A stretch of DNA of 14,478 bases from Candidatus Aerophobetes bacterium Ae_b3b (GTDB lineage Bacteria; Aerophobota; Aerophobia; Aerophobales; AE-B3A): the NCBI GenBank assembly GCA_005223085.1, contig NJBP01000050.1:1-14478 (forward strand), given 5' to 3'. This document shows positions 5,127 to 8,100 of this stretch, piece by piece; within the stretch, counting starts at the first letter, position 1, and every line of letters starts with the position of its first letter. The notes beneath the pieces are model-generated. The model ran no database searches and was not told the origin of the DNA. It worked only from the letters and a program-made list of their open reading frames with translations. A program made the position numbers and the translations under genes.

Positions 5127-8100
5127 ATGAGCAAGGAAGGTAGAATAATTAAGATCGCAGGTCCCCTGGTGGTTGCTCAGGGTATCCCCAGAGCCAGAAT
5201 GTTTGATGTAGTGCGGGTAGGAAAGGAAAGACTGATTGGTGAAATTCTGGAAATAAGGGGTGATAACGCTTCTATCCAGGTCTACGAGGAAACAGGGGGC
5301 TTAAAGCCGGGAGAGCCGGTTGAGTCAACTTATCAACCCTTATCAGTGGAATTAGCCCCTGGTATATTGGGAAACATATATGACGGGATACAACGTCCTT
5401 TAGATTTAATCATGGCAATGAAAGGAGACTTTATTTCTCGAGGAATCGAATTACCTGCTATTGACCGCGAAAAAGAGTGGGATTTCAAACCAACAGTGAA
5501 AGAAGGAGAAAAGGTTACGGCCGGAGATATTCTCGGAGTGGTGCAGGAGACAGAGATAGTCGAGCATCGCATCCTCGTCCCCTTTGGAATTGAGGGAAAG
5601 ATAAAGAAAATAAGGGAAGGCAAAGTAAAAGTGGAAGATACTATTGCGGTAATTAGAACTCCAGAAGGAAAGGAAAAGGAAATCTCTATGCTTCAGAGAT
5701 GGCCAGTGAGGAAGATGAGGCCCTACAAAAAACAATTGAATCCCGAAGAGCCTCTAATTACCGGCCAAAGGGTCATCGATACTTTCTTTCCCATTGCTAA
5801 AGGGGGAACTGCCTGTATCCCGGGCCCCTTCGGGAGCGGGAAATGCGTCTCTGGCAGAACTCCAATTCTCATGGGAGATGGAGGTATTCTTACTATAAGA
5901 GCTCTCTTTCAATTTGCTAAAAGGAAAGGAAAGCAGATAAAAGGAGAAAAATTCGAGGAAATATACGATATCTCTGAGTGGCATAATCCTTCTCTGATAT
6001 CTTTAAACAGCGAGAAATTTGAAGTTTGCAAGCCTATAACGGCATACAAAGGATTCACCGATAGTATCGTTTGCATTTACACAAGAACAGGTAAGAAAGT
6101 CGAGATAACACCGATTCATCAATTATTTACCTTGAATGATGGAAAGTTAGAGGAGAAAAAAGCCGAGGAAATTAAACCCGGTAATTATCTGGCTACTCCT
6201 CGTCATATTGACTTAAACTTACCTCTTTACACTCTACCCCTTCTGGATATACTGGCTGATTCCAACCTTTACTCTTGTGATCCAGAAGTAAATATGATAG
6301 CAAGAAAATATTTGAAGTCATTGACTAAAGAAGGTAAGGTTGAAAAAAAAACACGACAGTATCTGCGAAAAGACAGAAATGTTCCCTTTAATTTGTTGAC
6401 CTGCATTAAAGAGGAATTTTCTGTCTCTTTGATACCGAAAAAGGTCTGTAGTTTTCATGGTAAAAAGATTACTCTTCCTCAGAAGGTTACGCCTGAATTT
6501 AGTGAATTCCTAGCTTATGTGATGGCTGATGGGAATTTGAAAAGAAGTGGCTATTCTATAAGATTTTATAACGCTTCTCCCGAAGTGTTAGATAGGTTCT
6601 GCAAATTAGCTCAAGATTTGTTTGGAATTGCCCCTCGTGTTTATCCCCATCCTCGGGGAGGGAGAGCCTTTATTGCTCAAATAGATTGTAAGGCAGTTTT
6701 TGAATTGCTAAGAGGGTTAGGGATACCCTATATTCAAAAGGCAAAAAATGCCCATATCCCTGAATGTGTACTAAAATCCAGCGATGAATGTATTGCATCT
6801 TTCCTTTGGGAATATATAGTCTGTGATGGAAGTATTGATAAAGAGGGAAGTAGAGTAGAAATAACATCAGCAAGCAGGAAGTTAATCGAGGAACTGAGTC
6901 TCTGTCTGCCACGGTTAGGGATTATCTCTTCTATAGGCAAAAGAAAGGCCGATGGGACTTTCAGGCTATGGATAAATTCCAGTCAGCAGTTAGAAAATTT
7001 ACTGAATATGGTGAAAATTAAAGGCGCGAAAAAAGAACTTTTGGCCCAGGCTATAAAAAAGGTCAAAGGAAGATGGTCTTCTATAGATGCCTTTCCTATA
7101 CCCTCTTTTTTCCGACAATTCCTTAAAGGTCCAGGGATCTTGTCCTATCTCAAAGACAAAGGTATTCATGCCGAATCGTGCGCCTATAACCAGAAAAAGA
7201 TTGGTACCCATACCTTATTAAGGATAGTTAATACTCTCCGCCAAAATTTCTCCATTCCTCCAGAAGTAGAAAAATTGAGCAATCTCATCCAAGAGGTTTT
7301 CTTTGATGAGGTAAAAAAAATAGAACGTGTGTTTCAAAAGACGGAAGTCTACGACCTGGAAGTGCCTCGTATGGCCAATTTTGTGGGAGGACATGGGCCT
7401 ATCCTTCTCCACAATACCGTCGTTCAACACCAGCTTTCCAAATGGGTGGATGCAGATATTATCGTGTTCGCGGCGTGTGGTGAACGTGGGAACGAGGTTG
7501 CCGATGTCCTGAGAGAATTCCCCAAACTTAAGGACCCCAAGACAGGCAAACCTTTGATGGAAAGAACTGTCTTAATAGCCAATACCTCCAATATGCCGGT
7601 GGCAGCCAGGGAAGCTTCCATATACACGGGAATTACTCTGGCTGAATACTATCGAGATATGGGCTATGATGTGGCTTTGATGGCTGACTCTACCTCCCGG
7701 TGGGCTGAGGCTTTAAGAGAGATGTCAGGAAGACTTGAAGAGATGCCTGGAGAAGAGGGATATCCCGCCTATCTTCCTTCAAGATTGGCCGAATTCTATG
7801 AAAGAGCAGGAAGGATCATCTGCCTGGGACGCGATGAGCGAAAGGCAAGTTTGAGCGCCATTGGAGCAGTATCGCCTCCGGGAGGGGATCTCTCCGAACC
7901 AGTAACTCAGGCTACTTTGAGGGTGGTAAGGGTTTTCTGGGCCCTGGTGGCTGAACTAGCTTATCAACGCCACTTTCCAGCCATACATTGGCTGCGCAGC
8001 TATTCCCTCTATCTGGATAACCTGAAGGGATATTTTACACGAGAAGTGGCTGCTGACTGGATGGACCTACGAACGAGAGCCATGGCCCTTCTTCAAAAGG

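Follow-up and report, generated by a model that had tools for sequence, protein, structure and literature searches.

Inteins excise themselves from the proteins that carry them, and homing spreads these elements into empty alleles. Among their insertion sites, VMA-b is an archaeal site that Swithers et al. 2009 described and that corresponds to K240/T241 in P. horikoshii (PMC2814812), and VMA-b inteins with solved structures exist (PMC8966425). The best solved structural matches to the intein described below, TliVMA (7qss) and PhoVMA (7qst) of the Thermococcales, occupy this same site in archaeal hyperthermophiles and combine a HINT splicing domain with a LAGLIDADG homing endonuclease domain and an accessory domain. 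The yeast VMA1 intein PI-SceI is also a LAGLIDADG intein of the same host subunit, but it occupies the VMA-a site instead. The movement of such elements between distant hosts has been discussed previously, and PMC4071816 cites Swithers et al. 2013 as evidence that inteins move between phyla and between domains.

Here we describe an endonuclease-bearing VMA-b intein in the V/A-type ATPase of a bacterium of the Aerophobetes (genome G000 in our sample). The window analyzed is a stretch of 14,478 nucleotides that makes up the entire contig C45; the metagenome-assembled genome to which it belongs measures 2.04 Mb, is 88.6% complete and is divided into 86 contigs. On its + strand, atpA (5106..8477) encodes the catalytic A subunit as an intein-bearing precursor of 1123 aa (1123 open codons, with an alternative start at the Met of MSKEG at 5127), and is followed on the same strand by atpB (8474..9862) and atpD (9872..10501), assigned by Pfam to the B and D subunits. 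Pfam matches on the precursor comprise ATP-synt_ab_N, the A-subunit barrel-sandwich domain, ATP-synt_ab and the VA C-terminal domain, with Intein_splicing and LAGLIDADG_3 interrupting the series, while the best-scoring NCBIfam model is PRK14698 (V-type ATP synthase subunit A) at 1036 bits, under its cut-off of 1238 bits. The domain order and the operon partners B and D are those of a bacterial V/A-type A subunit, and in the extein tree the host sequence groups with bacterial Aerophobetes sequences. This agrees with the first-pass annotation, made from the nucleotide sequence, which had placed a bacterial V/A-ATPase catalytic subunit beside tig (3099-4472) and clpP (4502-5092).

Elsewhere in the window, five tRNA genes (Gly, His, Lys, Gly, Leu) are clustered at 2491-3140, just upstream of tig. 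As listed, the tig ORF starts at 3099 and overlaps tRNA-Leu; the gene itself therefore begins deeper in the ORF, probably near 3162. In convergent orientation to the ATPase genes, the - strand at 10498-14317 encodes a lipid-A-disaccharide synthase-related protein, an O-antigen ligase-like protein and a family-2 glycosyltransferase.

The intein comprises 524 residues (precursor residues 247-770; 5844..7415, + strand) and lies exactly between the Lys and the Thr of the P-loop, with borders GPFGSGK/C...HN/TVVQ, where slashes mark the junctions. The N-extein (5106..5843) ends in the first part of the P-loop, GPFGSGK (5823-5843), and the C-extein (7416..8474) begins with the P-loop Thr, the +1 splicing nucleophile. 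Without the intein, the A subunit has 599 aa, equal in length to the intein-free homologue of a genome from the same genus (G001). The insertion point, GPFGSGK/TVVQ, is that of VMA-b, and the open reading frame, junctions, Pfam matches and structural model all bear out the annotated position and length of the element.

The residues of a class-1 intein are all in place. The N-terminal part of the HINT splicing domain (5844..6218) contains Cys1 and the block B motif TPIH (residues 89-92), whose T and H are invariant across the aligned VMA-b intein family, and the C-terminal part (7254..7415) terminates in His523-Asn524, followed by Thr+1. Between these two parts, the LAGLIDADG homing endonuclease domain (residues about 206-386; 6459..7001) presents two helices, each with an acidic end residue, and alignment confirms the annotated catalytic residues Asp229 (6528..6530) and Asp328 (6825..6827). 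Pfam detects both modules, Intein_splicing with E values of 1e-21 to 5e-22 and LAGLIDADG_3 with an E value of 1e-19. The endonuclease is flanked by a weakly conserved helical accessory segment (residues 126-205; 6219..6458; helices 147-162, 168-176 and 182-192 in the model), which may contact DNA, and by a second accessory segment (residues about 387-470; 7002..7253) that, in both the alignment and the model, lies at the position of the TliVMA accessory domain (PMC8966425). The base composition of the intein differs from that of its host gene, with a GC content of 38.7% versus 46.6% overall and 35% versus 45% at third codon positions.

Structural comparison places the element among the known VMA-b inteins. 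An AlphaFold2 model of the intein (mean pLDDT 90.8, pTM 0.90) aligns end to end with TliVMA (7qss; Z 38.4, rmsd 2.3 Å over 422 residues), and full-length matches are likewise obtained with PhoVMA (7qst; Z 34.4) and further archaeal inteins; this end-to-end fit to solved VMA-b inteins excludes chance resemblance. The HINT fold is further recovered against the TvoVMA mini-intein (Z 24.2) and many other structures, whereas PI-SceI scores Z 17. Like our intein, TliVMA has Asp in both LAGLIDADG motifs, and phmmer detects it at 1e-38. In contrast, TliVMA (429 aa) and PhoVMA (376 aa) are shorter than the 524 residues seen here, are about 31-32% identical to it, and lack its extra helical segment (residues 126-205).

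The closest relative of the window intein is found across a domain boundary. An intein in the archaeal genome G948 (L127) occupies the same site, also has 524 aa and both catalytic Asp residues, and is 44% identical to ours from end to end, whereas identity to all other full-length inteins is about 33% or less. Genome G948 is counted as archaeal because it was sampled as a relative sharing the domain of an archaeal genome and because its own extein is archaeal; the archaeal extein is encoded in the same ORF as L127, on a 3.3-kb contig. In the intein tree the two are sisters with support of 100/100, a pairing also recovered from the endonuclease alone (100/100) and, with less support, from the splicing part alone (94/80). 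The extein tree, on the other hand, separates archaea from bacteria (100/99), with the window extein adjoining the intein-free G001 and the L127 extein located within the archaea, and an AU test rejects a clade of the window and L127 exteins (p 1e-5).

Both members of this pair are also detached from the inteins of their own host relatives. Other members of the same Aerophobetes family (Ae_b3a/G002, L003/L041, with partial copies in G007 and G008) carry inteins in the same gene and at the same site, but these have Glu as the first catalytic acid. The window extein groups with those of G002 and G007, while the G002 and G007 inteins, each about 30% identical to the window intein and with that of G002 the complete one, branch elsewhere, close to the intein of Mahella and the main archaeal group (branches 100/100 and 100/99; the join with the Mahella intein has moderate support, 88/77). 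An AU test rejects a clade of the window intein and the other Aerophobetes inteins (p 3e-85). The same holds on the archaeal side, where L127 is 90% identical to L118 and L119 in the extein but 27% identical in the intein, and where grouping the L127 intein with those of its extein sisters is likewise rejected (p 1e-58).

The first-pass annotation had proposed comparing intein and extein phylogenies as a check on transfer, with agreement throughout speaking against it; the trees instead conflict decisively. This conflict implies that the intein moved laterally across domains, independently of the host gene, and we regard such transfer as well supported by the sequence comparisons. Transfer may have been from an archaeon, as had been suggested, or in the opposite direction, since the group has only two members that are 44% identical and sit on long branches. 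Synonymous sites between the two inteins are saturated (pS 0.82), indicating that the link to the archaeal sister is either old or passed through unsampled hosts. The LAGLIDADG domain is the part of the window intein best conserved relative to L127 (55%), and its pN is the lowest (0.29; the N-terminal splicing part has 0.39), in keeping with ongoing selection for cutting and homing.

To place the insertion among close relatives, we compared the locus across a phylum sample of 17 genomes, in which the window-type intein occurs in one genome only. Intein-free alleles, which the annotation had recommended looking for, do exist: the P-loop is empty in the same-genus G001, in the family member G006 and in all eight genomes from other families of the order. 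VMA-b inteins are found in three other family members (G002, G007 and G008, the latter two copies cut by contig ends), and G003, G004 and G005 of the same family are uninformative at atpA. The G001 locus and the window form a single collinear alignment of 5958 bp with 91.6% identity that runs through the site and in which G001 lacks exactly the 1572-bp insert; the exteins are 93-94% identical. An occupied and an empty allele are thereby seen within one genus, the population-level sign of a mobile element. The earlier suggestion of a recent invasion is in keeping with this difference, and the intein may have arrived recently in the genus of the window, although a recent precise loss in G001 is the alternative.

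The DNA around the insertion site was also compared between these two alleles. The five consecutive codons of Gly-Ser-Gly-Lys/Thr (5833-5843 and 7416-7418) all differ synonymously between G000 and G001 (L142), and the AGC/TCG difference at Ser is the sole AGY/TCN switch among 26 serine codons. In permutations, such a run has p 0.003 at the site and p 0.20 anywhere in the gene, and is thus suggestive only, either of a co-conversion trace or of a change in the target site. Co-conversion from a donor resembling L127 was rejected, as the L127 codons at the site differ from those of the window. As for possible carriers, a protein search of viral contigs combined with a search for the K/C junction pattern and two profile searches returned no relative apart from two weak LAGLIDADG matches. 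Phage and plasmid records gave weak partial matches only, which mostly fell in the endonuclease region of inteins from helicases, terminases and RecA. These searches thus revealed no carrier of the window intein among viruses, phages or plasmids.

Taken together, we propose that this is very probably a class-1, endonuclease-bearing VMA-b intein, acquired laterally as a selfish homing element, that restores the 599-aa A subunit by splicing. After translation, an N-S shift at Cys1, transesterification to Thr+1 and cyclization of Asn524 would excise the intein, restoring the P-loop GPFGSGKT and an ordinary A subunit. Intein-free atpA alleles would be cleaved by the LAGLIDADG endonuclease within the conserved P-loop DNA and would receive a copy of the intein during repair, so that homing would be its route of spread; the host would probably gain no benefit. 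The element is predicted to have arrived in the Aerophobetes lineage independently of the other VMA-b intein lineage of the family, from an exchange network that would include archaea.

The discordant trees raise the question of whether the distribution could be explained without transfer, by an ancestral VMA-b intein inherited vertically, lost precisely and repeatedly, and evolving fast. Inteins do evolve faster than their hosts, and those of the VMA-b site occur widely in archaea and also in several phyla of bacteria. However, the window intein is not the sister of the G002 and G007 inteins even though the exteins are, L127 shows the same conflict with its own extein sisters, and vertical descent would need two old paralogous lineages to have been kept in parallel at one site of one gene. 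The AU tests reject inheritance with loss, which we consider strongly disfavored and of very little probability. An assembly or binning artifact, in which a bacterial contig would have been fused with a piece of archaeal DNA, has a practically negligible chance of being correct: the source is a metagenome-assembled genome in 86 contigs, but the extein and the tig, clpP, atpB and atpD flanks are collinear with G001 at 91.6% identity, by which a chimera was rejected, and the reading frame is unbroken across both junctions at the exact intein borders.

Other alternatives accept the intein as genuine and differ in what it does. It might be a degenerate element whose endonuclease is dead and that persists through splicing alone, as several archaeal VMA-b inteins no longer retain one of the catalytic acids, or any endonuclease at all; this is unlikely here, given that both acids, the fold and the flanking motif residues are intact and that the endonuclease is the most conserved part relative to the archaeal sister. 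More far-reaching is the notion, also raised in the first-pass annotation, that the intein serves the host as a domesticated post-translational switch, with ATPase activation held back until a signal such as redox, temperature or energy state permits splicing. Because the intein splits the P-loop, the A subunit would be unable to bind nucleotide properly before splicing, so the dependence of a working enzyme on splicing follows for this subunit. Other inteins are documented to splice conditionally (PMC5790916, PMC6195587), and the genome, at 88.6% completeness, revealed no second rotary ATPase; only A and B subunits were matched, so that the V/A-ATPase may be the sole rotary ATPase of the bacterium. 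The switch itself fares poorly: the congener and most relatives lack the intein, no sequence features supporting regulated splicing were found, and it is the endonuclease that is preserved best, which a selfish element would be expected to show. The N-extein Cys located nine residues before the site was rejected as a special redox partner, as it is common to intein-free homologues. We therefore consider domestication highly improbable, and more improbable still the fuller version in which an intein captured from a co-living archaeon gates the only rotary ATPase by regulated splicing.

The selfish homing element that we favor belongs to a wider set of VMA-b inteins. Within bacteria, other carriers include at least Omnitrophota (L042), Mahella (L044, L141), Elusimicrobia (L045, L048, L086) and Actinomycetota (L063, L139, L140), with additional VMA-b inteins in G430 and many archaea. 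The Mahella inteins are bacterial VMA-b inteins like ours, but are 24% identical to it and belong to a different branch. In a broad bacterial sample outside the phylum, 2 of about 370 genomes carried a VMA-b intein; such inteins are rare in bacteria but not unique. The bacterial setting is consequently less exceptional than the first-pass annotation implied, and work by Swithers and colleagues in 2013 reportedly already included a VMA-b intein in the bacterium Mahella australiensis. Bacterial carriage and interdomain transfer of VMA-b inteins are already known, and Aerophobetes is an added host phylum; our literature search found no paper joining inteins with Aerophobetes.

Two further features of this family were observed. 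Archaeal VMA-b inteins L065, L066, L067, L090, L101-L104 and L118-L120 have lost catalytic LAGLIDADG acids or the entire endonuclease, and represent several stages of the homing cycle at one site. Several bacterial VMA-b inteins (L045, L048, L063, L086, L110, L139, L140) end in Ser-Asn rather than His-Asn, Ser being an unusual penultimate residue for efficient Asn cyclization.

Inteins also occur in other genes of the phylum. The acetyl-CoA synthase/CODH-ACS alpha-beta subunit carries them in G013 and G010 (L035, L036) and in G004, G007 and G002 (L037, L039, L040), inserted at two positions, each of which falls on A-cluster cysteines: SCIL/.../CQSYAPNHVC and PMTS/.../CGCFECI, the latter with the Cys-Gly-Cys nickel ligand. 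A literature search found no paper describing inteins in acetyl-CoA synthase/CODH-ACS, and these are possibly more novel than the atpA intein. Another intein (L038, G002:C39) lies in an anaerobic ribonucleoside-triphosphate reductase (NrdD).

While these observations leave the understanding of inteins unchanged in principle, they extend the host range of VMA-b inteins by a phylum of uncultured bacteria and provide an unusually clear case of double discordance. Two unrelated inteins occupy the same codon pair in a bacterial family, as do two in an archaeal group, and one intein from each of these pairs is the sister of the other across the domain boundary. They support the view of the catalytic ATPase P-loop as a landing site common to Bacteria and Archaea, and with an occupied and an empty allele available from a single genus, homing can be tested directly.
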